Shown piece after piece: positions 1,028-26,431 of a DNA stretch of 26,431 nucleotides. Every line of letters starts with the position of its first letter. The stretch's first letter is position 1. Both the position numbers and the translations under genes were made by a program. The notes below the pieces were generated by a model. It searched no databases and was not told the DNA's origin. It saw nothing but the letters and a program-made list of their open reading frames with translations. This DNA comes from a virus: IMG/VR virus record IMGVR_UViG_3300032177_000067, positions 1-26,431 of that record; one strand, 5' to 3'.

Positions 1028-1038
1028 TCTGATCCTTT

Positions 1039-1314
1039 TTAGCTCTTAAATCTAATTCCGGTTATCTCTAAGTCATAAGAGATATCTTCTTCTCCGTTTG
1101 TCTTTGTTATCCGAATCTCCCTGGGAGTAATTTTAATTTCCGCATCTAGAGAGATATTAAGATCTTCTTCTGAAATGGGTAGTTTTATCTTACGAAGATA
1201 AACTACCGGCCCCCTAGGTTTAGGCTTTTCCGCTTTTGCCTCCATAGGCATCTGGCCCATCGTTTCGGGTTTCTCCTTTAAGTCTATAAATGGATCATGC
1301 TTTTTCGCTAACAT
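1039..1314 (-). CDS. Small unknown protein with beta-rich C-terminus
   Basis: A 91-residue protein of no recognised family. The first 35 residues are lysine- and proline-rich and probably disordered. The remainder alternates hydrophobic and polar residues (VVYLRKIKLP, AEIKITPREIRITK), as expected for a small beta sheet. The ATG at 1314 has a strong ribosome binding site (AAGGAGGAGAAG) and overlaps the end of the upstream GT9-like gene by 20 bases, which suggests coupled translation. No catalytic motif is visible. It may be a small structural or accessory protein of the late operon. Confidence 0.6.
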   Translation of the reverse strand: MLAKKHDPFIDLKEKPETMGQMPMEAKAEKPKPRGPVVYLRKIKLPISEEDLNISLDAEIKITPREIRITKTNGEEDISYDLEITGIRFKS

Positions 1315-2143
1315 CTTCTCCTCCTTCTAAGGTTTTTAACCATGCCTTAACTTCTCCCCCCTTATATTCCCCTGGGAGTATAGAGGCCCTGGCAACGGGA
1401 AGACGAGTAAAACACTCGAGCTTGAAGTGTTTTTGCAGGAAAAATATCCTGTTACTCGGCAAGATCGCCAGAGCCAAATGCAAATTGCCGCTTACCACTC
1501 CCACGAATCCGGATAAGCAGCCAACTAGGCTTATCAGATTCGAGATCCTGGCGCGCGCCCTCCTTACAGAACAATCCACAAAATCAAACTTCTTATTAAC
1601 CGGGTTATGAAAAACATGCTCAAAATGGGTTTCTATGGGAATAAAGCCTGCCTCCAGGATCTCATCCCAAATAAGCCTTGCGGTCTCTTCTGAGGGATTA
1701 CAGGCATCCGGAAGGCATGTTATATTGAAATGGACCCCGATCAGCCGGCTGGCGCGTACTGGTACAAGCCTATGGCCATTTATAGGAGCTATGCCAAGCT
1801 CATTTACGCAACAAAATTCTCCCTTAGTAAGCTCTACCTGGCCCTCAGACATAGGAAAATGGACTTTAGCCACAATATCGTAATCTAAAGTCTCCAGAGT
1901 ATTCATATCATCCCCGGTTATAAAGCGCGCCCAAGGCACGATATCCTCAAAAGAAAGGCCTTTCTGGACCGCTAGATCGAATTGGATATCCGGATAAAGC
2001 TCCCGGAGCCGGTAAAAGGGATTCAAAAACATAATCAGATCCCCTAGCCCATGCCAGAAAATAATTAGCACTCTCTTAGTCTCAGCGCTAAATTGCTGGA
2101 CTAACTTTTGATCTTCATAAAAAGGCTCAATTACTTTTGCCAT
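1295..2143 (-). CDS. GT9 (heptosyltransferase-like) glycosyltransferase
   Basis: A 282-residue protein with the GT-B architecture of the GT9 ADP-heptose:LPS heptosyltransferase family. The N-terminal glycine loop reads HGLGDLIMFLNPFYRL (H31 to G34, D35), and the C-terminal motif SGNLHLALAI (S218 to H222) matches the family's SG.-.HLA donor-site signature. GT9 enzymes usually add heptose or a related sugar to lipopolysaccharide, and in phages the acceptor is seldom known. It is somewhat shorter than typical members (about 320-350). It overlaps both neighbours (16 bases with 2127-2669, 20 bases with 1039-1314). A second GT9-like domain lies in the fusion at 7624-9483. Confidence 0.75.
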   Translation of the reverse strand: MAKVIEPFYEDQKLVQQFSAETKRVLIIFWHGLGDLIMFLNPFYRLRELYPDIQFDLAVQKGLSFEDIVPWARFITGDDMNTLETLDYDIVAKVHFPMSEGQVELTKGEFCCVNELGIAPINGHRLVPVRASRLIGVHFNITCLPDACNPSEETARLIWDEILEAGFIPIETHFEHVFHNPVNKKFDFVDCSVRRARARISNLISLVGCLSGFVGVVSGNLHLALAILPSNRIFFLQKHFKLECFTRLPVARASILPGEYKGGEVKAWLKTLEGGEDVSEKA

Positions 2144-2669
2144 CTTTGATCACCCACCAGGTAAAATCCTCTCCCAAATGGATTATTTGCTCTTTAAAGC
2201 AGTCATGAAAGACTGCCCGGGTTACTCCATCCTGCTGAATAAAATCATGGCCGGCAATGATCCCTCCGGGCCGGACCTTAGATCCGTAATTCTTAATATC
2301 TCTTAACACTTGATCGTAAGCATGATCTCCATCTATAAAAACAAAATCTATCTCATCCGGCACATCCAGAATCGCCTCATCGCTTGTTTTACGGATGATA
2401 ATGGATCTTCCATTATATTCTGCTAAGCGCGCCTGCGCGATCCGGTAATTCTCATCTAACTCTTCTTGAGTAAGGCCACATTCAAAAAAAGCCCCATCTA
2501 TATGCTGCCAGGGATCAATAGAGTATAAAATCAAATTAGATAAGAACTGGAGCATGGTAACGCTGCCGGATCCGGTTAAGACCCCAATTTCTACTCCGAC
2601 GAGCCTCCGCTCTGATCCAAAATGAGGCAGATAAACCTTCCTCGGCATAAATTCATGCTGCAAGTACAT
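2127..2669 (-). CDS. Class I SAM-dependent methyltransferase (Methyltransf_24-like)
   Basis: This 180-residue protein has the Rossmann methyltransferase signature: motif I VGVEIGVLTGSG near residues 24-35, the acidic strand DEIDFVFIDGDHAYDQV near residues 106-122, and RPGGIIAGHDF after it. This DGDHAY.-.V..DI pattern is typical of the Methyltransf_24 group, often found beside sugar biosynthesis genes where members methylate sugars or related small molecules. The ATG at 2669 lies in the overlap with the preceding gene; a second ATG seven codons later is an alternative start. Part of the overlapping glycan operon. The substrate is unknown. Confidence 0.75.
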   Translation of the reverse strand: MYLQHEFMPRKVYLPHFGSERRLVGVEIGVLTGSGSVTMLQFLSNLILYSIDPWQHIDGAFFECGLTQEELDENYRIAQARLAEYNGRSIIIRKTSDEAILDVPDEIDFVFIDGDHAYDQVLRDIKNYGSKVRPGGIIAGHDFIQQDGVTRAVFHDCFKEQIIHLGEDFTWWVIKDGKSN

Positions 2670-3654
2670 TTTCTCTTTCCTCTTCGTATCTAGGCCTCAG
2701 TATCTGGCCATGCAGATATTCCTCAGATCTGATCTCCGGGATCATGTTATTGAATCGCTCCATAAAAGTCTTAACGATATTATAATTATGCTCATTATTA
2801 TCAGCCAGCCGGATCAGCTCTTTATGATCCCCGGGCCCGGATAACTCTTGCTTAAAACTGCGCCATTCCGCCTCAACCCGTCCCTTCTGCCACCAGCGGC
2901 AATGCCAGGCAGAAAGCGGTATCTGTAAATGATTATAAACCTTATCTCCGCCTACATACAGCCTAGTATAAGGCCAGATCGAATCGCATACCCATAATCT
3001 TCCCGGTAGCCCCAGGACCTTGCCCCTAGATCCATGCCGGCAGACTGATCTATTAAGCGCGATAACTGAATGATTCGCCTCCCCCCGGAAGGCATCCTCA
3101 ATCTGAAAATCTATGATATCCCTAGGTAGCTGAGCGTATTGCTGGCCGATAAAATTCATCCCATCGAAGATCGCAGCCTGGGATCTATCCCAGATATTCT
3201 TATCGTCTCCGAAAGGCAGCTCTTCCGCCCTTAAGAAATTAAAAGGATATTCCGAATTGACCAGGATCCCGGCAGCTGCTATGTTAAAAATCGTATCTAA
3301 ATTCACAAAGACAAAAGTATCCGCCTGGATCACGCAGACTGCTTTATATTTTTTCTCCCTTAAAAGCTTATGCGCCAGGAGCCAATAAGCCAGCCACATC
3401 CTATCCAAAATCCCGGATCCTTCTTTTCTCTTATCGACAACCTCTTCCATCAACTCAGAAACCGGAGTCCAGGTAACATTGAATCGGAAAGCCTGGCTTA
3501 CCTTCTCTCTATATTCCGGATCAAATCCCTCATAAGCTACTTCCCAGTCTGCATCCGTTCCAAAGTAATTCTGCGCATTCATGCAGGAGATCATCCCGAA
3601 AGCATACCCGGCATTGCAAGATAAGACTATTGCGTAATCGCTTTTTTTCTTCAT
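2653..3654 (-). CDS. GT-A-like glycosyltransferase, probable paralogue of 65-1027
   Basis: A 333-residue cytoplasmic protein that begins with YAIVLSCNAGYAFGMISCMN, the same type of opening strand and helix as the product of 65-1027. The equivalent of the DxD site reads VCVIQADTFVFVNLD, so the first acidic residue is glutamine (Q110-A111-D112). This could mean altered metal dependence or loss of activity. The rest is rich in aromatic residues (WHCRWW, LWVCDSIWPY), as in many sugar-binding proteins. Its ATG overlaps the stop of the upstream methyltransferase as ATGA. Assignment as a glycosyltransferase rests on the fold-like pattern and its neighbours. Confidence 0.6.
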   Translation of the reverse strand: MKKKSDYAIVLSCNAGYAFGMISCMNAQNYFGTDADWEVAYEGFDPEYREKVSQAFRFNVTWTPVSELMEEVVDKRKEGSGILDRMWLAYWLLAHKLLREKKYKAVCVIQADTFVFVNLDTIFNIAAAGILVNSEYPFNFLRAEELPFGDDKNIWDRSQAAIFDGMNFIGQQYAQLPRDIIDFQIEDAFRGEANHSVIALNRSVCRHGSRGKVLGLPGRLWVCDSIWPYTRLYVGGDKVYNHLQIPLSAWHCRWWQKGRVEAEWRSFKQELSGPGDHKELIRLADNNEHNYNIVKTFMERFNNMIPEIRSEEYLHGQILRPRYEEERENVLAA

Positions 3655-4343
3655 GAGATTATAGGTTTTAAAGATCCATCATCATTCCGGATATCCGGCT
3701 CCGGACCCTGGGGCCACATCTTTTTGGGATCCTCGATATAATTATCCATCTTTCTTAAAATAGCCAGGCCATAATTAGCGAAGAATCGGATATACTCCCA
3801 TTTATATTTAGGATTATTATAGATCTCCTGTACCGGCTCCATCACCCAACCATAAACATCATGGATAACTAAATAACCTCTCCCGGCATCCAGGAGCAAC
3901 GGATAAAGGATCTCGACTTCTTTTAAAAGATGCTGCCGGGAATGCCAACCATCCACAAAAGCCAATCCCAGCTGACGATCTCCAAAGGTATCTTTAGTCA
4001 TATCCCAGGAGTCCATCTGGAGCATCGTAACCGGTAAGCCCTTTTCCCGGAAGAGCCTCTGGAACTCCGGCAACTCCCCGGAGATATCTATCCCATAATA
4101 TTGGCCATCACATTTATACCGGCTCATATTGTCTTTAACCCCGGAGGCCAAAAAATAAGAACTATACGCCTTACAGACTCCTATCTCGACGACAAAATTT
4201 GCATCCGCGCATCTAGTAAGCCAATAAAGCAACGGGCCATAATAAGGAGTGCTATGATTTATTGTAGTCTCAATATGGTCCTTGCAACTAGCCTCGAATA
4301 TCGGCGCAGGATATTCCTTAAAATAACCATCATCTCTAATCAT
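3651..4343 (-). CDS. Class I SAM-dependent methyltransferase
   Basis: A 230-residue protein with motif I VVEIGVCKAYSSYFLASG, a second strand YYGIDISGE, and the acidic strand LGLAFVDGWHSRQHLLKEVE followed by GYLVIHDVYGW. This is the Methyltransf_24 type of pattern. It is clearly paralogous to 6023-6682: both begin with YF.-.YPAP, share THE N-terminal segment ending in YGP or FGP, and end in YIRFF or YVRFF with GLAILRK. The ATG at 4343 has the site GGGAGGGTAA and overlaps the upstream stop as ATGA. It probably methylates a sugar or carboxylate made by the cassette. The substrate is inferred only. Confidence 0.75.
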   Translation of the reverse strand: MIRDDGYFKEYPAPIFEASCKDHIETTINHSTPYYGPLLYWLTRCADANFVVEIGVCKAYSSYFLASGVKDNMSRYKCDGQYYGIDISGELPEFQRLFREKGLPVTMLQMDSWDMTKDTFGDRQLGLAFVDGWHSRQHLLKEVEILYPLLLDAGRGYLVIHDVYGWVMEPVQEIYNNPKYKWEYIRFFANYGLAILRKMDNYIEDPKKMWPQGPEPDIRNDDGSLKPIIS

Positions 4344-4960
4344 TTACCCTCCCTTTTTGCTAGACATTTTCTTATCCCGGTTACAAGCTCATACAAAGAA
4401 TACTTCTTACCCTTACGACAACTCAAAACATTAACTTCTTTTTCGATCAACTTAACCGCATCCTTAACATACAAAAATTGGAATTTGCGGCGCGTATCTA
4501 TCTTAGGGATCTTGCCGGTTTTTACCTCGGAGATAATCTTCGTAACTATCTTATAAGGCCTGTCTCCGGGCCCATAGACGATCGGCAGCCTAAGGATCCT
4601 TACCTTTAAGCCTCTCATCTGATAGATCCGGCAGATCTCTTCTCCTATCAATTTGCTCAACCCATAGATATGTTCATCCATGACTTGAAAAGTAGAGACA
4701 AATAAAACCCAAATCCTTCTCCTTAAAGCTACCTCTAAAACATCACATAAAGCCAGAAGATTTATCTTTATAGTATCCCTGGGATTCTCTTGGCATAACT
4801 TGCGGCTAGAGACTGCGGCCAGATGCACGATCCCAGAAACCCCTTTCGTTTGTCTCCAGATAGAATGGATCTTAGTAATATCTCCGGTAAAAGCCTTACC
4901 TCCCCGGATAGACTTGCCTATAAAGCCGCCTGCGCCTGTAATAAGAACATTTTTTCTCAT
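4340..4960 (-). CDS. NAD-dependent epimerase/dehydratase (extended SDR), short
   Basis: A 206-residue protein with an N-terminal Rossmann signature VLITGAGGFIG (G9 to G15, the GxxGxxG of extended short-chain dehydrogenases), the GIVHLAAVSS segment, and the YxxxK catalytic pair as Y99-GLS-K103. LRLPIVYGPGDRP is the usual substrate-side motif. Family members interconvert nucleotide sugars. At 206 residues it is much shorter than the usual 300 or so, lacking part of the region after GGFIG and a complete C-terminal substrate domain. It may be a minimal or decayed enzyme. It overlaps both neighbours by four bases. Confidence 0.75.
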   Translation of the reverse strand: MRKNVLITGAGGFIGKSIRGGKAFTGDITKIHSIWRQTKGVSGIVHLAAVSSRKLCQENPRDTIKINLLALCDVLEVALRRRIWVLFVSTFQVMDEHIYGLSKLIGEEICRIYQMRGLKVRILRLPIVYGPGDRPYKIVTKIISEVKTGKIPKIDTRRKFQFLYVKDAVKLIEKEVNVLSCRKGKKYSLYELVTGIRKCLAKREGK

Positions 4961-5865
4961 GGAAAATTTACCATCTTCACTTTCTTAGCCCGGTCCAGGA
5001 TCTTATTGATCTCATGATTTTTACAGCAATTCTGGCACTCCGGCACAACCGGGATCTTCTTAGCTATCTCCGGCCAAATATCCAGGATCCTGTCTTTTTT
5101 CAGATCCCCCAAGATGAATCTTTTATCCCCGGACAAATAAAGGCATGTACTCAACATTCCTTCCCAGTCTATCGAAGGACAAAAATTATACCCGTAACAA
5201 AAATCATAACTCCGGGCCTGCCGGGCATCCCGGTATTTATATTCGGTAAGATATACTTCAAAGCCTTTTTTCTCATATTCTTTAAGATATACCGGTATCT
5301 CGAGTTCCGGTTGAGAAAGATGATCCCCTATAAGAGCAGGGCGGACCTGGAGATAGCTGGACCCCAGGCCGCGCGCCTGCAAGCAAAGCATCCGGAGGTC
5401 CGTCTCCCCCAAAAGCTTCGTCTGATTTATGCAGATTCCAAAAGGTACCTTAGGTTTGATTGTCTTCTTAAGCCCGGCATCAGTTAAAGATATCCGGATC
5501 CATTCAAATTTATCTTGATGAGGAATCTCCTGGAGCCCATTCGTAAAAATCCCCTGTTCTATCCCCAGGAAAAAAGCGCGCTCGACGAAATCCTTAAAAT
5601 GAGGATGCAAAGTCGGCTCCCCTCCTCCGGTCCAATTTATGGCCTTGACTCCCAGTAGGGCCAGATCTTCGATGATCTCCATCATCTTAAGGCTGTCTAT
5701 CTTGGCATCGCTCTTCCTATCCTTAAAAAAACACCAGGGGCAAGAGGCATTGCAGAAAGCTGTCGGAGCTATCTCGACAAGAATAGGCAAGGATCTATCA
5801 GATTCCAGCCATCTCTTTATCCTGTCTCCATGCCATAACAACTTCTCTACGGGCCCGAATATCAT
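4957..5865 (-). CDS. Radical SAM protein with SPASM-like C-terminus
   Basis: This 302-residue protein has the radical SAM cluster motif CNASCPWC (C38, C42, C45: CX3CX2C) followed by the GGGEPTLHP loop. The C-terminal third has further cysteines in FCPSIDWEGMLSTC and VPECQNCC, as in SPASM or twitch auxiliary-cluster domains. Such enzymes carry out radical chemistry on sugars, peptides or cofactors. Between sugar-modifying enzymes it may remodel a nucleotide sugar (dehydration, epimerisation or C-methylation), but a peptide substrate cannot be excluded. The ATG shares one A with the stop of the upstream small gene (TAATG), so the genes are translationally coupled. Confidence 0.82.
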   Translation of the reverse strand: MIFGPVEKLLWHGDRIKRWLESDRSLPILVEIAPTAFCNASCPWCFFKDRKSDAKIDSLKMMEIIEDLALLGVKAINWTGGGEPTLHPHFKDFVERAFFLGIEQGIFTNGLQEIPHQDKFEWIRISLTDAGLKKTIKPKVPFGICINQTKLLGETDLRMLCLQARGLGSSYLQVRPALIGDHLSQPELEIPVYLKEYEKKGFEVYLTEYKYRDARQARSYDFCYGYNFCPSIDWEGMLSTCLYLSGDKRFILGDLKKDRILDIWPEIAKKIPVVPECQNCCKNHEINKILDRAKKVKMVNFP

Positions 5866-6026
5866 TAAAACCTCCGGATGATTATCTTGCCGGCCAAAAC
5901 GAAACGCTCCCAGACAGTTAGATCATTATTAACAAAAGCCTTAAACTTAGGGACCATCTGCTCTGTCTCCTTAGCGGCCATACGCCTGGCCTCTCTCCTT
6001 AACTTCTTAGCCATCCTGCCATTCAT
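5865..6026 (-). CDS. Small basic protein, 53 residues
   Basis: A short frame between the methyltransferase at 6023-6682 and the radical SAM gene. The ATG at 6026 forms an ATGA overlap with the upstream stop, and the TAA at 5865-5867 shares a base with the radical SAM ATG, so the gene fits exactly into the coupled operon. An in-frame ATG at 6014 is an alternative start. The N-terminal half is strongly basic (MAKKLRREARRMAAKE) and the C-terminal half is a hydrophobic-aromatic helix (LTVWERFVLAGKIIIRRF). Similar short proteins with an Arg-rich start and a WERF-like end are common in phage late operons. Function unknown. Confidence 0.65.
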   Translation of the reverse strand: MNGRMAKKLRREARRMAAKETEQMVPKFKAFVNNDLTVWERFVLAGKIIIRRF

Positions 6027-6682
6027 GGGCTCCAATGCCTCGCAGTCTCATCAAATCCTTCTATCTTCCTAAGGATTGCAAGGCCCCAGGGAGTAAAGAA
6101 TCTGACATACTCAAACTGATAAACTCCTTCTTTAATCAACTCCATGATCTCATGGAAGGTATCCTCAGCCGGACCAAAACAGTCATGAAAAAGCCAGTAT
6201 CCCTGGCCCTTGCCTTTTAGCTGAGGATAAAGAGTCTTTAATTCATACATGACATGTTCTCTATCATGGCAACCATCCTGAAAAATCACATCAAAGACTA
6301 TCCCCGGGAAAGTCTCCGGAGTTAGATCCATCGAATCCATATTCCTTAGATCTACCGGCAGGCCGCACTCTAAAAGTTGCTCCCGGACCCGATCTGTCTG
6401 AGCGATATCAATACCATAATACTTATTGCCAGCCATCCCATAACGGACCGCATTATCCCGGACCGCATTGGCCATATAGAAAGCTGTATATCCTTCGGCA
6501 TGGCCTATCTCCAGGACTTGCTCAGCTCCCAGCTCGCGCAGAAGAAAATAAAACATCGGTCCAAAGAAAGGAATTGTCGAATTGATGATCGTAAAGTGCT
6601 GCGCATGCATCATCTCCATTAAAGGAGCCGGATACTGGCTAAAATACTCCACATCCATCGGGAATTGGATCTTATTATGCAT
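6023..6682 (-). CDS. Class I SAM-dependent methyltransferase, paralogue of 3651-4343
   Basis: A 219-residue protein. Motif I is VLEIGHAEGYTAFYMANA, then YYGIDIAQTD, then the acidic strand VIFQDGCHDREHVMYELK and GYWLFHDCFGP. It aligns along its length with the product of 3651-4343, and both end in a GLAILRK strand. The aspartate of the DGxH motif is kept. The ATG at 6682 shares one base with the upstream stop (TAATG). A duplicated methyltransferase within one operon suggests methylation at two positions or on two sugars. The substrate is not known. Confidence 0.75.
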   Translation of the reverse strand: MHNKIQFPMDVEYFSQYPAPLMEMMHAQHFTIINSTIPFFGPMFYFLLRELGAEQVLEIGHAEGYTAFYMANAVRDNAVRYGMAGNKYYGIDIAQTDRVREQLLECGLPVDLRNMDSMDLTPETFPGIVFDVIFQDGCHDREHVMYELKTLYPQLKGKGQGYWLFHDCFGPAEDTFHEIMELIKEGVYQFEYVRFFTPWGLAILRKIEGFDETARHWSP

Positions 6683-6957
6683 TAGTTATCTCCAAATCTG
6701 TATCCCCTAGGCTTAAGAATAAGACTCGGGCTGTATGCATGTATCATGTAGGCCTTACCTATGGACCAGACAAAAACCTTCGGATTATCTCTTTCAGTAA
6801 CCTCAAAGATATCCTTATGCTTATTATTCCAGCGCGCGGCCAGTTCTCTTAATGATTCCTTGGGATCGATCTTACCAAAAGCCCATTCCAGGCATTCTTC
6901 CATTTTTTCCGGAGGTACGCCGGCCAAAGTCAATAACTTATCTCCCCATTCTAACAT
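6682..6957 (-). CDS. Small unknown protein in the glycan operon
   Basis: A 91-residue soluble protein without a recognised domain. It has an acidic helical first half (PPEKMEECLEWAFGKIDPKE) and a second half that alternates hydrophobic residues (VFVWSIGKAYMIHAY), possibly a small alpha/beta fold. The ATG at 6957 overlaps the upstream methyltransferase stop by seven bases and its own stop overlaps the next ATG, so it belongs to the coupled operon. It could be an accessory subunit of a neighbouring enzyme; nothing in the sequence decides this. Confidence 0.6.
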   Translation of the reverse strand: MLEWGDKLLTLAGVPPEKMEECLEWAFGKIDPKESLRELAARWNNKHKDIFEVTERDNPKVFVWSIGKAYMIHAYSPSLILKPRGYRFGDN

Positions 6958-7631
6958 TTTTTCACCCCTACCCCGATCCCTTTTCCGTCGAGGTTTTCAT
7001 GGAAGAAAAACTCATCCTTATGCGCCTTCTTAAAATCTTCCCAGACATCGATTAAAGCGCAGCCATCCGGAGCGATATCATCAAAAAAAAGCAGGCCGGC
7101 CTTGGACAAAGAAGGTATTACATTTTCAAGATCCTGGCGCGCTACATCCTTCTCATGAGCTCCATCAACCAAAATATAATCCATCGCGATCAGTTTCTTC
7201 TCGGGAACTGTCTTAAGCGAATCCCCTATGATAAAATGGATCTTTTCTAGTGGCAGATTCAAAGCCCTCAGATTCATCTTAACTATCTCCGGAGAAATAA
7301 ACCCATCATTGAAGACATCGAAGAGATAAACCTCTGGAGCCTTAGGATCCGGCATCGGGCTTAAAAGCTGGCAGATCGATATTCCGGTCCGGCATCCGAT
7401 CTCCATAATATGATCTAATCTCCAATTAGATCCAATGGCCCAAAGAAGATGATAATAATCTATAAACTTCTCCCCATATTTTTGATAATGGCCCAGGTAT
7501 GCCTCAAAATAAGCATCTCCGGGATTATGCTTTTTAAGGATCCGCATGATATTAAAAACTGCCGCATTCGCGATCGGATCATACTTAAGATGTTTAGCTA
7601 TAAACTTAGACATCTGCTCGGGATTATACAT
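6951..7631 (-). CDS. Class I SAM-dependent methyltransferase
   Basis: The frame opens further upstream, but the ATG at 7631 is preferred because it has a strong ribosome binding site, GGAGGTGG, five or so bases upstream and reduces the overlap with the upstream gene to eight bases. This gives 226 residues starting MYNPEQMSKF. Motif I reads HIMEIGCRTGISICQLL, the second strand VYLFDVFNDG, and the acidic strand MDYILVDGAHEKDVARQDLE followed by GLLFFDDI. This is again the Methyltransf_24 type. The long N-terminal helical region (KYGEKFIDYYHLLW) may form the substrate lid. Substrate unknown, but glycan methylation fits the operon. Confidence 0.75.
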   Translation of the reverse strand: MYNPEQMSKFIAKHLKYDPIANAAVFNIMRILKKHNPGDAYFEAYLGHYQKYGEKFIDYYHLLWAIGSNWRLDHIMEIGCRTGISICQLLSPMPDPKAPEVYLFDVFNDGFISPEIVKMNLRALNLPLEKIHFIIGDSLKTVPEKKLIAMDYILVDGAHEKDVARQDLENVIPSLSKAGLLFFDDIAPDGCALIDVWEDFKKAHKDEFFFHENLDGKGIGVGVKKC

Positions 7632-9483
7632 GGGCCACCTCCGCAACAAACTCCAGCATGCCGCCCTTATAGTACCTCTCAACCGCCCAGGCTACATCTT
7701 CCGGCCGGATCAAAAGCATACAGAGAGGAATATTATCTTTCTTATTATTGCAGTCATAGAATTTACCTCTCCAGCATCCGTCATAAGGAGCGCATAAAAG
7801 GCAACCATTGACATAAATAAACTGATGATTAGGATAAAGCTCCCAGCGCGTCCCTTCCCTGGCCCCGGCAACCACAACGCAGGGCTTTCTAAAGGCAGCC
7901 GCTATATGCATCGGGAAAGAAACGCATGTAATCACTCCTTCGGCCTTAGCGATCAACCTAAAGAGCTCCCGGGTATTTGTCTGGCCTCTCATATCAATAA
8001 CTCCCTTAAGCGCCGCATGCAGATGGCCTTCCTGGCCTATCTGGACCAAAGTAATCTTGTCTTTTAAAAGATCCACAACCTCCTGGTAATAAGGATACTG
8101 CTTAATGGTATTCTCAGCCTTAGCCCCGGCATTGATCACCCAATAAGGACCCTCGATTCCAGCCTTAACTAAAGCAGGCCCTGGCCAGTCTTTCTCCTCC
8201 TGGGATAAAAAGAGATCCGGAAGGATATTAGTCTTATGAATCTTAACCTCCAAGACTTGCTCCAACCAATCTGTATGCCCCTGGCCAAAATGATGCCCTA
8301 CGATCCCGGATTCATGGATCAGAGGATAATGCATATCGATTGCCAGGACATCCCCGATCTGCGCCAGGAACTCCCGGATCAACTCCTTCTCTCCGGCCTT
8401 AATCCTCACAAAAAGCGCATTGCTATCATCCTGGGTAGTCTTGGACCATCGATCATTGATTAACTGGTATTTAGCCTCGTCATACTGGAGCTTAGTTATG
8501 TAAGGAGAATTATCAAAGATCTCATTGCAGGGAGTCCGGACATCTACAAGGTACCGGCCTGGATACGCAAGATTCAAATCCCGGATCGCATTCGTCATAA
8601 CCAGGATATCTCCAGGAGACAGCCGATTAAGTAAAAGGATCTTCTTTGGATCGCTGCGCAGCCAGGCTCCGGTCTTTACTTCTTCTTTTTCTTCCTCTTT
8701 CCTTTCTTCCATGGACAAGGCATCTGTCTCCTCCTTCTTAGTTACCGGTCCGAATACCGGAATCTCCATATTAAAATAAGGAATCACCTTATAATTTCTA
8801 AGGAGCTTTCTCTTTTTATAAACAAAAGCCGGATGCGCTAATCCTCCATCGCAACCGGTTATCATTTTCTTAAGGATAGGATTCTTCTCTAACTCCTCCC
8901 GAGTAAAAAGCGGCTTTTGTAATTCAAAGAGCCGGTCCACTTCCGCCAATAGATCCACTCCCAGAAATCTATCATCAAAGAATCCCCGGCCATCATATCT
9001 TATGGCCATGCGGTATTCGCTTGAACAATAGATAAATATCCCATCGGTTTTTAAATGATGATGAATCCGGGTTAAGATCTCCCGGATCTCTATGGCAGGG
9101 ACATGCTGTAAAACATAAATGAGGTATATGATATCAAACTTCTGATCCAGCTCTTGCGGAGCCTTAGCGTTAAATCTTTCATTATTGACATAAGATTCTG
9201 CCTTCTCCATCATTGATCGAGAGGCATCGCAACCGGTTACAAAGACAGACTTATTCTGAGCTAAGATCTCTTTAGACAAGCGGCCTACGCCACATCCATA
9301 ATCTAAGATCTCAGCCTCGCGCCGGGCAAAGCGCAAGATCGCCTCAGCAAAAGCCGGAGTTTCTGCATCCCATCTCTGCTGCATGGTAAATCCGTTACAG
9401 TCTCCTACTACCTCATGCTGGCCCTCTTCAAATGTTTTCGCTTTGAATAGGTTATGATCCTTCAATACTCGATTCTTCTCCAT
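7624..9483 (-). CDS. Methyltransferase-GT9 glycosyltransferase fusion
   Basis: A 619-residue two-domain protein and the first gene of the glycan operon. Residues about 30-170 are a class I SAM methyltransferase with motif I ILDYGCGVGRLSKEI (59-73), TGCDASRSMM, and the HHHLKTDGIFIYC region. A charged linker rich in Glu and Lys (about 249-271) joins it to a GT9-like domain from about residue 280 (KILLLNRLSPGDILV), whose C-terminal part has VSFPMHIAAAF at the position of the GT9 HLA motif and a cysteine-rich end (CLLCAPYDGC). A fused pair suggests sugar transfer and methylation are coupled. The ATG at 9483 has a GGGGAGG ribosome binding site. Confidence 0.8.
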   Translation of the reverse strand: MEKNRVLKDHNLFKAKTFEEGQHEVVGDCNGFTMQQRWDAETPAFAEAILRFARREAEILDYGCGVGRLSKEILAQNKSVFVTGCDASRSMMEKAESYVNNERFNAKAPQELDQKFDIIYLIYVLQHVPAIEIREILTRIHHHLKTDGIFIYCSSEYRMAIRYDGRGFFDDRFLGVDLLAEVDRLFELQKPLFTREELEKNPILKKMITGCDGGLAHPAFVYKKRKLLRNYKVIPYFNMEIPVFGPVTKKEETDALSMEERKEEEKEEVKTGAWLRSDPKKILLLNRLSPGDILVMTNAIRDLNLAYPGRYLVDVRTPCNEIFDNSPYITKLQYDEAKYQLINDRWSKTTQDDSNALFVRIKAGEKELIREFLAQIGDVLAIDMHYPLIHESGIVGHHFGQGHTDWLEQVLEVKIHKTNILPDLFLSQEEKDWPGPALVKAGIEGPYWVINAGAKAENTIKQYPYYQEVVDLLKDKITLVQIGQEGHLHAALKGVIDMRGQTNTRELFRLIAKAEGVITCVSFPMHIAAAFRKPCVVVAGAREGTRWELYPNHQFIYVNGCLLCAPYDGCWRGKFYDCNNKKDNIPLCMLLIRPEDVAWAVERYYKGGMLEFVAEVAHV

Positions 9484-9857: not shown

Positions 9858-10817
9858 TTATCCTATTGACTCAGAGCTCGAAGACGAGCTTGAGCTACTA
9901 GAGCTGCTCGAAGACGAAGAACTCGAGCTTGAAGAGCTAGACTTGCTCGATGAACTTGAACTCGAGGAGCTTGAAGAACTCGAGGATGAACTCGAGCTGC
10001 TAGAACTACTCGACCTACTCGAACTCGAGGATGAACTCGAGCTTGAACTAGACGAGCTGCTGCTTAAAGAACTACTGGAGCTGCTCGATGACGATGAACT
10101 AGATGAACTTAAGCTAGATGAACTACTGGAGCTAGAGCTTGAAGAACTGGAGCTAGAGCTTGAAGATGAAGAACTGCTCGAACTCGATGAACTTCTGCTC
10201 GAAGAACTGCTCGAAGAACTCGAACTAGAAGAGCTAGACTTACTCGAGGAACTTGAACTACTCGAGGAAGAACTCATACTCGAAGAACTTGAGGATGAAC
10301 TCTTAACCACATCTCCCAGGCCCAAAGTGCTCCTATAATCGACATTAGTAAGCGTCGCATCGGCATCGCAAGCATTTAACGCACGATTCCACCTATCTAT
10401 AAAATCATCCAGAAAGGCAGCAATTTCATCCTGCCATTCTCCTAACTTTTTAATCCTGGCATTGGAGACATCAATTAGATGCTCCGTAGTATCAAACTTC
10501 TCCGTTGTAAAAATAGTCGTACCGGCAACCCCATCATCTGCCGCCAATAGATCCAGGATCGCGTTAAAATTCGTCCGGATATAATAAAGCAGCAAATTTA
10601 CTTTGCCTTGCGGCATGGCATTGTACTGGATATCTTTGCCATAGGTATTTCCGATAGACGGAGAAGTTATTTTATAGGTAGTGGCTATCGCGGTATCGCC
10701 CGTATCGACATTGATCTTATCGATAAACGAGGATAAATTAGTTACGATGGAATAAAGAAGATCAAAGATCCCCTTCTCCCAGTAACCGCGACTTTCGATT
10801 CTCTCTGTATGTCCCAC
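9858..10817 (-). CDS. Poly-serine (mucin-like) protein
   Basis: A 319-residue protein starting with GTG at 10817 behind GGAGG. Residues 1 to about 172 form a folded domain with helical stretches (GKVNLLLYYIRTNFNAIL, WQDEIAAFLDDFIDRWNRAL). From about 173 to 315 it is almost only serine, interrupted singly by Met, Lys, Arg or Leu, ending ESIG. The serines use both AGY and TCN codons in mixed order, so the homopolymer is conserved at the protein level and is not a simple DNA repeat. The gene lies just after the capsid gene and just before the glycosyltransferase operon. Possible roles are a capsid-attached surface chain or fibre and an O-glycosylation target. Both are inference. Confidence 0.8.
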   Translation of the reverse strand: MGHTERIESRGYWEKGIFDLLYSIVTNLSSFIDKINVDTGDTAIATTYKITSPSIGNTYGKDIQYNAMPQGKVNLLLYYIRTNFNAILDLLAADDGVAGTTIFTTEKFDTTEHLIDVSNARIKKLGEWQDEIAAFLDDFIDRWNRALNACDADATLTNVDYRSTLGLGDVVKSSSSSSSSMSSSSSSSSSSSKSSSSSSSSSSSSSSRSSSSSSSSSSSSSSSSSSSSSSSSSSSLSSSSSSSSSSSSSSLSSSSSSSSSSSSSSSSRSSSSSSSSSSSSSSSSSSSSSSSKSSSSSSSSSSSSSSSSSSSSSSSESIG

Positions 10818-17348: not shown

Positions 17349-17526
17349 AATTATTTTTAGAAGAGCGAAACGGTCTGGCATTGCGTACTATGGTATAAAA
17401 CTGGATTCCGACCTTTTTCAAAACCTTATTCGCGCAAGCCAGGACTTCTTTAATCTGCGCTATATTAACCTGGACTTTCTTCCCTTCTAATCCCGAGATC
17501 TTCTTTGCTAAAGTATTGATATTCAT
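17332..17526 (-). CDS. Small unknown phage protein
   Basis: A 64-residue protein, MNINTLAKKISGLEGKKVQV at its start, with a helical, Lys-rich pattern and IAQIKEVLACANKVLKKVG as a likely amphipathic helix. Its ATG overlaps the TGA of the lipoprotein gene as ATGA. Short proteins of this KISGLEG.-.IAQIKEVL type recur in environmental phage early regions next to genes of unknown function. No catalytic residues are apparent. Confidence 0.58.
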   Translation of the reverse strand: MNINTLAKKISGLEGKKVQVNIAQIKEVLACANKVLKKVGIQFYTIVRNARPFRSSKNNYGNCP

Positions 17527-17786
17527 TTATCCTCCTGCTTATAATTGCTTATGCAATAGGCCGGATGATTCAGTCTCCAGATCCACATCCTGACCTTGAC
17601 TCCGGACTTTACATGGACCGCATACTTCTTATAGCTTTCGGCAATAGTAAGATCTTCTGGGGCTTGCTGGACCCCATTGATCCAAAACATAGTCTGATCC
17701 GGAAGGCTGATATAAACCGGCGGCCGGACAGTACTGCATCCGGCCAGGAAAAAACAAAATAAGATTAAAAAGATGTTCTTCCTCAT
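17523..17786 (-). CDS. Small predicted lipoprotein
   Basis: An 87-residue protein beginning MRKNIFLILFCFFLAGCSTV, a textbook type II signal peptide with lipobox LAGC, so mature Cys17 would be lipidated. After processing about 70 residues remain, with a Pro-rich start (RPPVYISLPDQ) and two Trp motifs (WINGVQ, WIWRLNHPAY). It would sit on a membrane facing the periplasm, probably the outer membrane. Small lipoproteins in phages include Rz1-type spanins and superinfection-exclusion proteins, but nothing here decides between them. The ATG overlaps the upstream stop as ATGA. Confidence 0.72.
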   Translation of the reverse strand: MRKNIFLILFCFFLAGCSTVRPPVYISLPDQTMFWINGVQQAPEDLTIAESYKKYAVHVKSGVKVRMWIWRLNHPAYCISNYKQEDK

Positions 17787-21469: not shown

Positions 21470-21961
21470 CTATCCCTCCAGCGGTTTGACAGAATCCCAG
21501 ATCACTTGCTGGTAATCGTTTCCGCCCGTTTCGCTCTTCTTAGTGGCCAGCTGCAACTTTACATCCATATCCTGGAGAAAATCGATGATATCCTGCGGAG
21601 TCGGATTCAATTCTCCCATCCCCATGTTAAGCAGAAATTGAGGAAGATGAGCCTTGCCCCCCAAGGATGCGCCTAGTTTGATCCAGACGCGCCTGGGCTC
21701 TCCATTAGGTAACTGATAATTATTAAGCAAGATCATAATGTTAAATTGCCTGCGCGGAATCTGCTCCTGAGTCTCTGCATCTATAACCGGCTCCTTGTCT
21801 TTATTCAGGAGATATTGCATCTGTCCCTTAAAATAAACATACTCATATTCTACCTTATCGATGCGGCCATCCAGCCATTCCCTCTCCGGTAAAAAAGGAA
21901 AGGGTTTTTGTTTAGGTAAAGGTTTTTTATAATCACCATTCGGCGGTTTCTGTCTATCCAT
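21470..21961 (-). CDS. Possible OB-fold single-stranded-DNA-binding protein
   Basis: A 163-residue protein with a Pro/Lys-rich N-terminal extension, then beta-strand-rich sequence (LDGRIDKVEYEYVYFKGQMQ, FNIMILLNNYQLPNG, RRVWIKLGASLGG) and a final VKLQLATKKSE strand before DYQQVIWDSVKPLEG. The strand order and aromatic content resemble OB-fold proteins that bind single-stranded DNA in phage replication modules. Nothing diagnostic such as an SSB acidic tip is present, so the call is tentative. It sits three genes upstream of the HNH and replication initiator genes. Confidence 0.42.
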   Translation of the reverse strand: MDRQKPPNGDYKKPLPKQKPFPFLPEREWLDGRIDKVEYEYVYFKGQMQYLLNKDKEPVIDAETQEQIPRRQFNIMILLNNYQLPNGEPRRVWIKLGASLGGKAHLPQFLLNMGMGELNPTPQDIIDFLQDMDVKLQLATKKSETGGNDYQQVIWDSVKPLEG

Positions 21962-22106
21962 TTTTAAGTCCCCCTTTCTGGGTAGTAGCGGTTAATATAA
22001 ATATCGCAGGACAATTCCTGCATGCGTAATCCTTCGTCTTCCTCCGGAAATATACTTGTCCGCTGCCGCAATCCGGACAACGCGGCTTTAGGATGCCTTT
22101 AGGCAT
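21954..22106 (-). CDS. Small zinc-ribbon protein
   Basis: The ATG at 22106 is preferred because AAAGGAGGT stands three bases upstream; a start at 22136 is less likely. The 50-residue protein is a zinc ribbon, CPDCGSGQVYFRRKTKDYAC then CP, with cysteines 10, 13, 29 and 32. Its ribbon is strikingly like the C-terminal ribbon of the nuclease-like protein at 23267-23710. It could be a DNA-binding or transcription-modulating factor. Confidence 0.68.
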   Translation of the reverse strand: MPKGILKPRCPDCGSGQVYFRRKTKDYACRNCPAIFILTATTQKGGLKNG

Positions 22107-22299
22107 GGTACCTCCTTTCTGTAAATAGTCTTTCAATGATCCGATTGATCATCGTCTTTTGATTTTCATCTTCGGCAGAAGGCAAAAAGCGATACCACTC
22201 CAAGAGCTGCTCCTCGCTGGCAGACTCGACTTCAGCCATATTATAAGGCCAGGCAACCGGGCGCGGATACCATCCGACCTTTCTGCTTAATTCATCCAT
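22099..22299 (-). CDS. Small unknown protein
   Basis: A longer frame opens at 22362, but that start lies upstream of the promoter -35 box and much of the extension is promoter sequence, so the ATG at 22299, preceded by AGGAGG eleven bases upstream, is used. This gives 66 residues with a Trp-rich start (VGWYPRPVAWPYNMAE) and an acidic helical region (ASEEQLLEWYRFLPSAED). Similar acidic EQLLEWYRFLP proteins occur in phages without known function. Confidence 0.6.
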   Translation of the reverse strand: MDELSRKVGWYPRPVAWPYNMAEVESASEEQLLEWYRFLPSAEDENQKTMINRIIERLFTERRYHA

Positions 22300-22323
22300 A
22301 TTAGGATTTTCCTCCTGGTACAT

Positions 22324-22352
22324 AGTATATGTTTTTTTTTGTGTTTTGTCAA
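22324..22352 (-). promoter_or_regulatory. Strong sigma70-type promoter
   Basis: On the minus strand TTGACA (22352-22347), a 17-base A-rich spacer and TATACT (22329-22324). The -35 box is a consensus match and the -10 is one step off. It drives the genes from 22299 leftward and lies inside the upstream extension of the frame read there. Confidence 0.8.
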
Positions 22353-22374
22353 GAGTTTTCATAGAAGATATATT

Positions 22375-22773
22375 TTATTTTACGATCTCTATGGAGACCG
22401 GTATAACACCTTCTGATAAACTAGCAATAGAATTAAAGGCGCTCTTTGAAAGATCGAGTACCCTCCCTTTACGATAGAGCCTTTTGGCCGGGCCCCTGTC
22501 TGTAACGATGACTTTGCACGATCTATTTGATATAAGCGACCGAACATAAAGCCATGTACCCAAAGGATAATCCCAGCTAGCACAAGTAAATTTATTATCA
22601 TCAAGCCTCCTTCCATTGGCCATAACTCCGGAAGATCCTTCCCGGAGACAACTTTTAATTGAATACCAGCTCGCAGTCTGTCGCTGCGCCGGCTCCGTAC
22701 ATGATGCTAATCTCGAAGTCGTTATAACATTCAATGCTACAAAAATAAACAATATCCTTTTCAAGTTGTCCAT
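22375..22773 (-). CDS. RlpA-like lipoprotein (double-psi beta-barrel)
   Basis: A 132-residue protein with a signal peptide and lipobox LASC (Cys25), then a compact RlpA domain: TASWYS, GVMANGRRLD, SWDYPLGTWLYVRS, VIVTDRGPA and GRVLDLSKSAF, matching the double-psi beta-barrel of rare lipoprotein A family septal lytic transglycosylases, which cleave glycan strands lacking stem peptides. The aspartate of DRGP is kept. The ATG at 22773 has an excellent site, AGGAGG six bases upstream, inside the preceding gene. It is a candidate lysis or infection enzyme, membrane-anchored in a diderm host. No other endolysin appears in the window. Confidence 0.8.
   Translation of the reverse strand: MDNLKRILFIFVALNVITTSRLASCTEPAQRQTASWYSIKSCLREGSSGVMANGRRLDDNKFTCASWDYPLGTWLYVRSLISNRSCKVIVTDRGPAKRLYRKGRVLDLSKSAFNSIASLSEGVIPVSIEIVK
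22389..22601 (-). CDS. Candidate nested membrane protein within the RlpA gene
   Basis: In another frame inside the RlpA-like gene an ATG at 22601 follows AAGGAGG after four bases. The 70-residue product starts with a hydrophobic helix (MIINLLVLAGIILWVHGFMF) and has a second hydrophobic stretch (APLILLLVYQKVLY). Two membrane-like segments and a perfect ribosome binding site recall nested holin or spanin genes, but coding in this frame is not proven and could be a by-product of RlpA codons. Confidence 0.3.
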   Translation of the reverse strand: MIINLLVLAGIILWVHGFMFGRLYQIDRAKSSLQTGARPKGSIVKGGYSIFQRAPLILLLVYQKVLYRSP

Positions 22774-22897
22774 CTATCGCCTCCTCTCTGATCAACGCGA
22801 AAGCCTGGTTGCCTCTAGGGATCCTTCTTTTACACCCCGGGCCCCGGCAAGGATGAGGCTTGCGTGTCTTCTGTACTACATCGAGTCTTTGCTCCAT
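22655..22897 (-). CDS. Small zinc-finger protein (FCS-type-like)
   Basis: An 80-residue protein with a basic N-terminus, HPCRGPGCKRRIPRGNQAF and VYFCSIECYNDF, giving two Cys pairs spaced like a treble-clef or FCS-type finger. It could bind nucleic acid or protein. Its 3' end overlaps the RlpA-like gene by 119 bases in a different frame. The ATG at 22897 has the leader GGGGGACAGAAAG, the same as at 23077. Confidence 0.65.
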   Translation of the reverse strand: MEQRLDVVQKTRKPHPCRGPGCKRRIPRGNQAFALIREEAIDGQLEKDIVYFCSIECYNDFEISIMYGAGAATDCELVFN

Positions 22898-22915
22898 CTT
22901 TCTGTCCCCCTCTTT

Positions 22916-23077
22916 TTAATAAAGATCTGATTCTGTTAGCCGCTTAGCCTTAGAATTCTCTGCGGCATATTCTACAATTTTACTTACCTTGCGATCTAAG
23001 GCTACTAAAAATTCCTTAGTTGTCTGCCGACCCTTTATCGCCACTAACTGCCTTACTGCCTGCTTATTTAGTAACAT
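22916..23077 (-). CDS. Possible histone-fold mini-protein
   Basis: A 53-residue frame starting at ATG 23077 with GGGGGA upstream. The sequence runs KQAVRQLVAIKGRQTTKEF, then ALDRKVSKIVEYAAENSK and RLTESDLY. The order of a short helix, a long central helix ending in A..N.K and a T..DL cap parallels archaeal and bacterial histone-fold proteins (pattern A....RKTL..DI). It is near the lower size limit for that fold. If real, it could wrap or bridge DNA. The identification is by eye only. Confidence 0.55.
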   Translation of the reverse strand: MLLNKQAVRQLVAIKGRQTTKEFLVALDRKVSKIVEYAAENSKAKRLTESDLY

Positions 23078-23264
23078 CTTTCTGTCCCCCTTTCCTTTTG
23101 TCCTGGAGACTCAACTTTATCAAGGTCCCCAAGAGTTGTAATCCCAGCTCTTGAACGAGTTGCTGCGGAAACATGCGCACGCATAGATCCACAGCTCCAG
23201 CCAAGGCCTCAAGATCTTCGATTTTATTCTCTTTCAAGGCCTCCTCCAGCGCAGCAATTCTCAT
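23064..23264 (-). CDS. Small unknown helical protein
   Basis: A 66-residue protein. ATG 23264 is two bases after the upstream stop and follows a G-rich site; GTG at 23273 is an alternative. It is an acidic to neutral helical protein (IAALEEALKENKIEDLEALA, then LVQELGLQLLGTLIKLSL) with a Lys-rich end. It is likely all-alpha and perhaps oligomeric. No recognised family. Its last codons overlap the start of the histone-like gene. Confidence 0.55.
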   Translation of the reverse strand: MRIAALEEALKENKIEDLEALAGAVDLCVRMFPQQLVQELGLQLLGTLIKLSLQDKRKGGQKDVTK

Positions 23265-23739: not shown

Positions 23740-23768
23740 AATATACATCAATAAATGTAACTTGTCAA
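23740..23768 (-). promoter_or_regulatory. Sigma70-type promoter
   Basis: On the minus strand TTGACA (23768-23763), a 17-base spacer and TATATT (23745-23740). It drives the nuclease-like gene at 23710 and the genes after it, just downstream of a terminator hairpin. Confidence 0.72.
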
Positions 23769-23975: not shown

Positions 23976-24072
23976 TGTTTTTCTTATCCTTTGCTTTACA
24001 AAGATCACACTTCCCGGATCCTTCGTTTTTTATTTTTAATACTCTTACTTTGCATTCTTTACATAAACTCAT
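23929..24072 (-). CDS. Small zinc-binding protein
   Basis: A 47-residue protein with CKEC (C4, C7) and CDLCK (C23, C26), a CxxC-CxxC pattern typical of small zinc ribbons, and a charged tail (NNDQYKRASEESNDWR). The ATG overlaps the stop of the large upstream protein as ATGA, which indicates coupling to it. It may be a structural or regulatory mini-protein. Confidence 0.62.
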   Translation of the reverse strand: MSLCKECKVRVLKIKNEGSGKCDLCKAKDKKNNDQYKRASEESNDWR

Positions 24073-26431
24073 TGTCCAGGCCTGAATCCCAGATCTTCCT
24101 CCGGAGTAAATCCCAGGTCCTCTCCTTCGAAATTCTTATCGATCCGCCTCTTATTGACTCCGATATCCTTTATGATCGTAATAACATCATGAGAGACATG
24201 CTTAGGTCTATACCCTAAGATCTCGGCCTTGGCTGCGGTATTGATATCAGTAAGATATCCCTGGAGGATCTTAGCTTTCTCATCATCATCCTTGGCCAGG
24301 AACTTTTTATTAGTAGATAGTATAGTAAAAAGAATATCTGTTTTATTCCCGATGTATTTTTGATATTCCGTATATTGACCAGGAGTAAGTTCGATCGGCT
24401 CCTTTGTCTGGGATCCCAGCTTGATCTTGGCCTGGGCTACGCGCGGAAAGTGGATTGTCTCTCCGGTAGATTCCCAGATATCCAGGACCATCTTAGAGAC
24501 TGGATCCGGCTTGTACTTATTGACGAAGGCCGGATTAAGGAAAACATTAAAAGGATTATTAGAGTCCAGCTGGTACATCTCTTTTGTCCGGCCTAAGGTA
24601 TCGACCTTCTCCGGAAGAGTACCGGCAAGGCCCGGAATACGCATAGCCGCTTTATTATAAACTTCCTTAAAGTAATTAGGATCCCTGGTATTCCTGGCAG
24701 TATTATCTATAAGCTGCCGGATCTGATTCAAGGCTGACGGGACGAAACTGGCCGGGATATCCTGGAGAGTCTCTGAGATTCCCTCCGCTAGATTCTGTTT
24801 AGAAGTAAGAACTCTAAGGCCACGAACTAAAGGTTGCTCCTGGAGAGTCTCTGAGGCCTGGAGGAGTTGATCTCCCAAGTTAAGAGTTTTATCGACAAGA
24901 TTCTCTTTAGGATTAAGGACCATATTCGCGCCTAAGGCCAAGCCTATGGATCCCGGTAAAAACCAGTCATAAGTGATTAAGGTATCATCTTCCCGGATCT
25001 TAGCCATCTCCGGATCCATGCCGGAACTCAAGAATCTCTTTAAAGCCGAAACATTAACCTGATATTCCCGGATGCCGGATGCCTCTCTAGTTGCAGCTAC
25101 ATCTCTATCCTTGGCGCGCTTACCGCTGATGATCCCCAGGGCTGCCAGGACCGCCCCGAGCCCTACCAGAAAAACGGATCCGGTAAAGGCCCGGGAGGTT
25201 GCCTGGACAAATTCCTCTTGATTAAAAGGTCCTTGTTTAAAAATAGGCCGGCCTAAAGCGAAGGCAGCCTTGATGAACCCAAAAGGAGAGTATTCGATTC
25301 CCCTGGCCAGGATATTGGCCGGAGTCTTAGGATATTTAATTACGATATCTCCCAGGCCAAAATCTTTTTGTAAATTGAGTAGCTTTTTAAGCCGGACGAA
25401 AGTATTAGAGATCACATTATCATCCTGGAAGGTCCGGTACAGTCCGGAGAGATTAGCTTTTTCGATCATCTCCTCTGTCGGCTCATCCACTCCGGCAGCC
25501 AGGCATTGATTCCGGGTACTCTGATTAAAGGCTGCCTGGTAGAAAGCGCGGTCCGTAGCTGATAAAGAGATCCTCAAAGTCTTCTCCAAGGCCCCCAAGA
25601 CTCCCTTATCAAAGACTCCGTTAGAAGGAAGGGTATATTTACTCGTTACTCCCGGCTTAAGATTGATTCCTAAAAGAGCCTCTTCTGTCCCCTCTTTCAT
25701 ACCTTGGGCCAGGCCTTTACCCTGAGCTGTCATACTGGGAAGATAAGTTGTACGCTGGCCTGTCCTTAAAGATACGCTGATATCTAATAATGTTCCAAAA
25801 GTATCGGAGATATTCTCCGCAACCTGAAATCCCACATTACCCAGGATATTGCGGACAAAGGTCTTAGGATTTAAGAGCTGGGCCAGAGTCTGGATCATGG
25901 CAATCTTCTTACCTAAACCCGGAGGGATCTGGCCGGCGATCTTCTTTAAGAGAAGAGCCTGCTCGATCTGCTTGGCCCTGGAGAGTCTTCCCATTCCGAT
26001 CTTAAAAGTCTCCTGAGTCTCTGTCGTCCATGGTATATTGTCCGCGGTATCCGGTCCGATGCCGGCTTTTTTGAATTCATTGAAGACGAACTGGAAGGCA
26101 TTTTTGATATCCGGAGGTATCTCTCCGGCATCTTCCATCTTCTTAAATATATCCATAACATACTGATAAGCATTCCTGGGAGGCACATTTAAGAAATCCG
26201 GCCAGTCTTCGGCAGATGGCAACCTACGGATCATCTCAGACATCTTCCGGAGCTCCCCAGCTACTGTCTCGGAGATATGAGGGATCCCCAGCTTCTCGGC
26301 TAGTTTATCCTTTTCGGCCTGGGTCTTTAAGCCTTTAGAGAGCTTTTCATAATTAGTTATGCGCTCTTTTTGTTTAATGTTACCCCGGGCTCTCTGGACT
26401 TGTCTCTCCGCGTACTGGAGGATCCCTTCCG
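24069..26431 (-). CDS. Large internal-virion or polyvalent-type protein, 5'-truncated
   Basis: The frame is open to the window edge, so at least 787 residues are present and the true N-terminus is missing. The visible part has a coiled, charged start (QRARGNIKQKERITNYEKLS), a motif NPKTFVRNILGNVGFQVAEN recalling the P-T-RN-GN signature I associate with phage large polyvalent proteins, one strong membrane-like segment (VFLVGLGAVLAALGIISG), and a long C-terminal region with LNQIRQLIDNTARNTRDPNY. Such proteins are packaged and ejected with DNA and carry several activities. The ejection role is inferred. No enzymatic domain was recognised in this part. Confidence 0.55.
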   Translation of the reverse strand, partial: EGILQYAERQVQRARGNIKQKERITNYEKLSKGLKTQAEKDKLAEKLGIPHISETVAGELRKMSEMIRRLPSAEDWPDFLNVPPRNAYQYVMDIFKKMEDAGEIPPDIKNAFQFVFNEFKKAGIGPDTADNIPWTTETQETFKIGMGRLSRAKQIEQALLLKKIAGQIPPGLGKKIAMIQTLAQLLNPKTFVRNILGNVGFQVAENISDTFGTLLDISVSLRTGQRTTYLPSMTAQGKGLAQGMKEGTEEALLGINLKPGVTSKYTLPSNGVFDKGVLGALEKTLRISLSATDRAFYQAAFNQSTRNQCLAAGVDEPTEEMIEKANLSGLYRTFQDDNVISNTFVRLKKLLNLQKDFGLGDIVIKYPKTPANILARGIEYSPFGFIKAAFALGRPIFKQGPFNQEEFVQATSRAFTGSVFLVGLGAVLAALGIISGKRAKDRDVAATREASGIREYQVNVSALKRFLSSGMDPEMAKIREDDTLITYDWFLPGSIGLALGANMVLNPKENLVDKTLNLGDQLLQASETLQEQPLVRGLRVLTSKQNLAEGISETLQDIPASFVPSALNQIRQLIDNTARNTRDPNYFKEVYNKAAMRIPGLAGTLPEKVDTLGRTKEMYQLDSNNPFNVFLNPAFVNKYKPDPVSKMVLDIWESTGETIHFPRVAQAKIKLGSQTKEPIELTPGQYTEYQKYIGNKTDILFTILSTNKKFLAKDDDEKAKILQGYLTDINTAAKAEILGYRPKHVSHDVITIIKDIGVNKRRIDKNFEGEDLGFTPEEDLGFRPGQ

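Follow-up and report, generated by a model that had tools for sequence, protein, structure and literature searches.

RlpA, the septal ring lytic transglycosylase of Pseudomonas aeruginosa, which cuts glycan strands to leave 1,6-anhydro products, and PA4485 (PDB 4avr) are exported proteins with a double-psi beta-barrel (PF03330) and a conserved Asp, and the Glu, His and Asp residues of the RlpA barrel are its catalytic residues. An envelope gene with a small second frame nested in it is in turn known from the Rz/Rz1 spanin of phage lambda. RlpA-like proteins are widespread in phages as well: their genes are annotated in cyanophages (including PA-SR01, S-PM2, S-CRM01 and A-1) and in phages of Sinorhizobium (phiM12), Agrobacterium (OLIVR5), Rhodobacter (RcRudolph) and Chryseobacterium, a further one is carried by Moraxella phage Mcat, and rlpA was noted in cyanophages A-1, N-1, S-CRM01 and S-PM2 (PMC4916379). 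ORF83 of cyanophage PA-SR01 has moreover been proposed as its lysis gene (PMC7431792), so that an RlpA-type lysis enzyme is a less unusual idea than an earlier note on the present DNA supposed. In a limited search of open-licence papers we found no report of a tested role for the phage proteins, and none that describes a frame nested in phage rlpA or an overlap of rlpA with a zinc-finger gene, the two features considered here.

The locus and the RlpA-like protein

The DNA analysed (the window) is the whole 26,431-nt IMG/VR virus record IMGVR_UViG_3300032177_000067, which carries genes for the terminase small and large subunits, the portal and the major head protein together with a series of small genes, almost all of them in minus-strand orientation. 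A zinc-finger gene, an RlpA-like gene and a frame nested in the latter share DNA within it, as the earlier note had described: all three ORFs are present, and both internal starts have a ribosome-binding site on the minus strand, AGGAGG at 22780–22785 (within the zinc-finger gene, 6 nt before ATG 22773) for the RlpA-like gene and AAGGAGG at 22606–22612 (4 nt before ATG 22601, duplex energy −11.7 kcal/mol) for the nested frame.

The RlpA-like gene (22375–22773, minus strand) encodes a double-psi beta-barrel protein of 132 aa with an N-terminal signal peptide. Its assignment to RlpA is borne out by the PF03330 match (E = 7.6e-14, 52.2 bits against a Pfam cut-off of 28.8) and by a predicted structure whose core reaches pLDDT values >90 and whose best PDB match by Foldseek is PA4485 (E = 2.6e-9, TM 0.88 by target), while TIGR00413 is matched with E = 1.9e-13 at 50.8 bits, below its cut-off of 82.15. 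The hub of cyanophage A-1(L) is also among the best solved-structure matches of the model. PF03330 is the sole domain found and the protein ends with the barrel, without the SPOR domain of RlpA; it further differs from RlpA and PA4485 in having no conserved lipobox and in replacing the canonical Glu and His, and it adds a Cys pair and a TCASWDY motif. The isolate phage proteins found are 31–42% identical to it, and the SC..REG Cys motif is absent from 13 isolate phage rlpA genes, in which the zinc-finger overlap was not seen either.

In the window barrel the Asp (D92) is present, the canonical Glu has become Arg and the His has become Ser. Of 47 aligned loci, 45 have another residue in place of the His and 27 in place of the Glu; all retain the Asp. 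Two cysteines, C42 and C64, are common to the nearest relatives and could form a disulfide. With Glu and His lost, the barrel could be limited to binding or inhibition, as an exported protein comparable with the double-psi beta-barrel papain inhibitor of Streptomyces or with expansin, and the model does resemble both expansins and that inhibitor, with weak NCBIfam matches to EXLX1 and to the papain inhibitor pointing the same way. Against a mere binder or inhibitor stand the RlpA-like nature of the best structural matches, the Asp retained in all 47 loci and the hydrolase that fills the same place in a sister phage (see below), and we regard it as quite improbable.

The signal peptide, MDNLKRILFIFVALNVITTSRLASC (22699–22773, minus strand), was read by eye. 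It contains LASC, which fits a loose lipobox, yet the Arg at −4 violates the PROSITE-type pattern, and none of 46 relatives has a lipobox at this place, the loose pattern recurring only within the helix (IIAC) of two near-identical loci, L045 and L046. Lipid attachment as a conserved property was accordingly rejected, and the protein, called a lipoprotein in the earlier note, is unlikely to be one on these sequence patterns. Elsewhere in the window, near the terminase genes, a small gene (17523–17786, minus strand) has a clear lipobox, LAGC, and is a better lipoprotein candidate.

Overlap with the zinc-finger gene

The zinc-finger gene (22655–22897, minus strand) encodes an FCS/treble-clef-like protein of 80 aa with orthologues in two related phages, L001 and G033, and a relative in L026 that matches zf-FCS with E = 0.0032, below the Pfam cut-off; the spacing of the zinc ligands is largely preserved. 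Its 3' half doubles as the signal-peptide code of the RlpA-like gene, and along the 119 nt of overlap (22655–22773, minus strand) the same bases encode, in two frames, the zinc knuckle YFCSIECYN and the signal-peptide core IFVALNVIT. L001, with the same neighbours and an RlpA-like protein 58% identical, has the same overlap over 128 nt, and the register is the same in G033. In all three phages the internal ATG occupies one alignment column and opens the same +1 frame, and is preceded by an SD-like site at the matching position. Since internal start and frame are thus kept in L001 and G033, the overlap is real and far beyond chance. A profile search with the zinc finger returned only the three loci already known, and single-sequence searches of viral contigs with the zinc finger and its neighbours gave no matches. 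In L026, another phage, the zinc-finger relative (1246–1521) follows an RlpA-like gene downstream at a distance of about 110 nt, with no overlap, an arrangement that hints at a functional link.

Exchange of the wall protein in a sister phage

G033 is a near-complete relative of 38,433 nt, whose terminase and portal are 83% and 74% identical to those of the window. No RlpA was detected in it by profile search, and its zinc-finger orthologue overlaps instead the gene of a 171-aa protein with a signal peptide. The gene on the 3' side of the slot (22099–22362, minus strand) has its orthologue at the same position in G033 (67% identity over 61 aa), and a conserved gene of unknown function in the same block (21470–21961, minus strand) is 60–61% identical to its counterparts in L001 and G033.

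The G033 slot protein is 36% and 31% identical, with shared motifs, to two phage proteins that match PF07486 (Hydrolase_2) with E values of 1e-22 and 1e-26, and it gives weak PHROG matches to endolysin families (E 0.004) and to SleB (E 0.03). It has no Pfam match of its own and fell below the threshold in a PF07486 profile search of the genomes, and a single-sequence structure model was useless for its assignment. The case for a SleB (Hydrolase_2)-like protein is therefore good but not certain, as it is built on aligned motifs and weak matches. Exported SleB/Hydrolase_2 hydrolases such as those of Salmonella phage SSBI34 and Escherichia phage TrudiGerster would be its relatives; they are unrelated to the RlpA-like protein of the window and correspond to the protein that fills the slot in the other phage. 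Signal-peptide Hydrolase_2 genes were also seen amid DNA- or RNA-metabolism genes, and not lysis genes, in a vequintavirus-like phage (L074, 1342–1863) and in a T5-like one (L075, 1411–1860).

Both RlpA and SleB count among the lytic-transglycosylase domains (PMC6403190). The slot thus appears to carry interchangeable exported proteins of two peptidoglycan-cleaving families, each with its signal peptide inside the zinc-finger gene, and we read the difference between the phages as a swap of mature domains following a signal peptide whose replacement would break the zinc finger. It is a single case in one phage group, and within that group a clear one, in which two unrelated wall-acting proteins take each other's place after a signal peptide locked in another gene, which suggests how phages may exchange exported proteins. 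The idea that the RlpA-like protein cleaves the wall is strengthened by the presence of a SleB-like protein in the same slot of the sister phage.

The locus may accordingly be pictured as a slot in the phage genome that holds a small exported protein aimed at host peptidoglycan. The zinc-finger frame, in its middle and final parts, also supplies the start codon and signal peptide of the wall protein, and the mature part is exchanged, an RlpA-like barrel in the window and in L001 and a SleB-like hydrolase in G033. The overlap, the common start, the swap within the slot, the barrel fold and the lost residues are shown by the data, whereas export, the disulfide, the glycan target, the timing and the role are inferred. 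For this explanation as a whole, including the role proposed below, we put belief and doubt at equal weight.

The nested reading frame

The candidate overlapping gene lies in the +1 frame of the RlpA-like gene at 22389–22616 (minus strand) and would encode 75 aa from ATG 22616 or 70 aa from ATG 22601. Taken alone, the window says little for it: synonymous shuffling gave p = 0.013–0.03, which ranks second from the bottom among 78 gene-frame tests of the window and is about what multiple testing would produce. The frame is also broken in L001, the nearest syntenic phage, so that half of what the earlier note named as refuting its reading, a nested frame that is not conserved, applies to the closest relative. 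Of the shared architecture described in that note the zinc-finger overlap is kept in L001 and G033, and the nested frame is open more than expected in part of one subfamily. We had first concluded that the frame was mere chance, and withdrew that conclusion after a stop-codon test in this subfamily.

The subfamily was defined by the SC..REG Cys motif before its stop counts were seen; two matches from bacterial genomes, L199 and L200, whose open frames had already been seen, were later added as near kin. In 13 relatives, with the window excluded, the +1 frame has 73 stops against 84 expected (p = 0.009), and in the full set of 16 loci it has 77 against 95 (z −4.15). The +2 and antisense frames of the same loci show no departure from expectation, nor is there a +1 depletion in the rest of the RlpA family, and within the subfamily the depletion is confined to the nested stretch and reverses just past it. 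An open run at p ≤ 0.03 was found in 8 of the 16 loci, where the share among 326 control windows taken from those loci was 2.5%, and about half of the subfamily breaks the frame. Six members (the window, L002, L024, L025, L199 and L200) have no stop within it and share a common stop at column 103, their start sites being preceded by sequences with duplex energies of −8.8 to −12.7 kcal/mol. SD strength exceeds that of synonymous shuffles across the subfamily (p = 0.011, or 0.015 without the window), and codon identity in the overlapped part is raised in the open members (z 4.75) and not in the broken ones (z 0.97).

These results argue for a true overlapping gene, whose product would be a small, basic and partly hydrophobic protein that acts together with the barrel, for example as a membrane-active partner. 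They are to be set against the breakage of the frame in L001 and several other loci, and against the conservation of the +1 peptide, which is no better than that of the control frame (z 2.99 for +1, 3.02 for +2). The six open members were picked post hoc, so that p values calculated on them alone are biased, and the shuffles ignore that the sequences are related. Once shared codons are held fixed, the evidence drops to a Fisher p of 5e-5 to 3e-4 on that post-hoc set. The six do not form a clade in the tree; codon identity among five of them, however, is 0.50 against 0.38 expected, and some shared ancestry may therefore remain. The contrary reading, that the frame is a functionless by-product of the RlpA coding sequence and its codon choice, draws on the unremarkable p value of the window alone, on the lack of any frame-specific amino-acid conservation and on the derivation of the ATG and SD bases from the conserved NG-R-R-L-D-D motif, and it has to contend with a stop depletion and SD strength that extend across the subfamily, the former in one frame only. 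Because of the post-hoc set, the relatedness of the loci and peptide conservation at the level of the +2 frame, we consider the chances of a true gene evenly poised, and those of a by-product equally so. In the part of the subfamily where the frame is open, the roughly 70 codons may be translated, and if so a small, undescribed gene would lie inside some phage rlpA genes, a possibility that can be tested directly. The full three-layer arrangement, with an exchangeable wall protein whose signal peptide is encoded in a zinc-finger gene and with a +1 nested gene under selection in one subfamily, we believe slightly less readily than we doubt it.

The nested frame had been described as encoding a membrane protein. 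This holds for the window, where the maximum hydropathy over 19 residues is 2.29, and not for nine relatives, where it ranges from 0.08 to 1.42; as no conserved hydrophobic segment was present in the ten sequences compared, a conserved membrane protein was rejected. The arrangement resembles Rz/Rz1 in the nesting of a small frame in an envelope gene, and departs from it in that the outer gene encodes an RlpA-like barrel and that the nested product has neither a lipobox nor a conserved membrane segment. The L200 nested protein also looks hydrophobic by eye and had no match in the phage collection.

Possible role of the exported protein

The RlpA-like protein could be the lysis enzyme itself, a Sec-exported lytic transglycosylase replacing a classical endolysin, with the SleB-like enzyme taking this part in G033. 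The swap of the two proteins in one slot would fit such a function, and so would the position of the slot after the last large same-strand gene of the structural block, which would equally be expected of a late lysis gene. Neither the window nor the scanned ORFs of G033 gave any other recognisable endolysin, small membrane-protein genes were seen by eye near two relatives (in L199, holin-like and lipoprotein genes no more than about 2 kb upstream; in L031, two small membrane proteins immediately upstream), and the function is the one proposed for PA-SR01 (PMC7431792). We nonetheless hold it doubtful. The argument that phages with RlpA and no other endolysin must use RlpA as their endolysin, which seven family searches seemed to support, was discarded as uninformative, since random IMG/VR contigs gave equally low counts (1/27 per family for three families, like the RlpA set). 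The membrane proteins adjoining L031 matched no lysis family among the PHROGs, RcRudolph has a separate cell wall hydrolase besides its RlpA gene, and the canonical Glu and His are gone from the window barrel. The neighbours of the relatives are mostly DNA-metabolism genes, the named families being DNA methyltransferases, HNH endonucleases, exonucleases, a replication initiator, RusA, integrases and a helicase; no lysis family is found among the 25 commonest PHROGs of 128 such neighbours. With no holin, endolysin or spanin family in the window genes scanned, and no holin or spanin recognised beside the barrel, the lysis cassette suggested in the earlier note is not supported.

An accessory role in wall modification is thus more likely than that of a dedicated endolysin. 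The window barrel would be exported via Sec, probably fold with its C42–C64 disulfide, and bind or cleave glycan strands in the periplasm through Asp92, as the canonical Glu and His have been lost. We suppose that it most likely acts during infection as an accessory modifier of the wall, in superinfection exclusion, in interference with growth or division, or as an aid to lysis, and that it is not the phage's dedicated endolysin.

Genomic surroundings and bacterial relatives

The large gene that precedes the locus (24069–26243, minus strand) corresponds to the C-terminal portion of a 2462-aa ORF in G033 and would encode a virion protein. The full-length version in a relative (L069, 7860–15248, 2462 aa) contains stretches matched by PHROG families for a DNA repair protein and for an ATPase/polynucleotide kinase. 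A promoter-like TTGACA-17-TATATT (23740–23768, minus strand; 11 of 12 positions matching) lies in the gap that follows the large gene, in a scan that as a whole gave no excess over chance; it would fit a possible separate transcription unit holding the slot. A leader, GGGGGACAGAAAG, is repeated at 22898–22919 and 23078–23099 (minus strand), each copy directly 5' of the ATG of adjacent small genes. Farther away, a gene at 9858–10817 (minus strand) encodes a protein with very long poly-serine stretches, and downstream of it a cluster of methyltransferase- and glycosyltransferase-like genes (65–9483) occupies an odd position after the head genes.

A scan of bacterial genome contigs returned four matches, one in an Anaerolineaceae MAG and three in Omnitrophota MAGs (L199, L200, L201 and L202), which are the closest copies in bacterial genome assemblies. 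L200 adjoins what appear by eye to be integrase- and repressor-like genes, and may belong to an Omnitrophota prophage.
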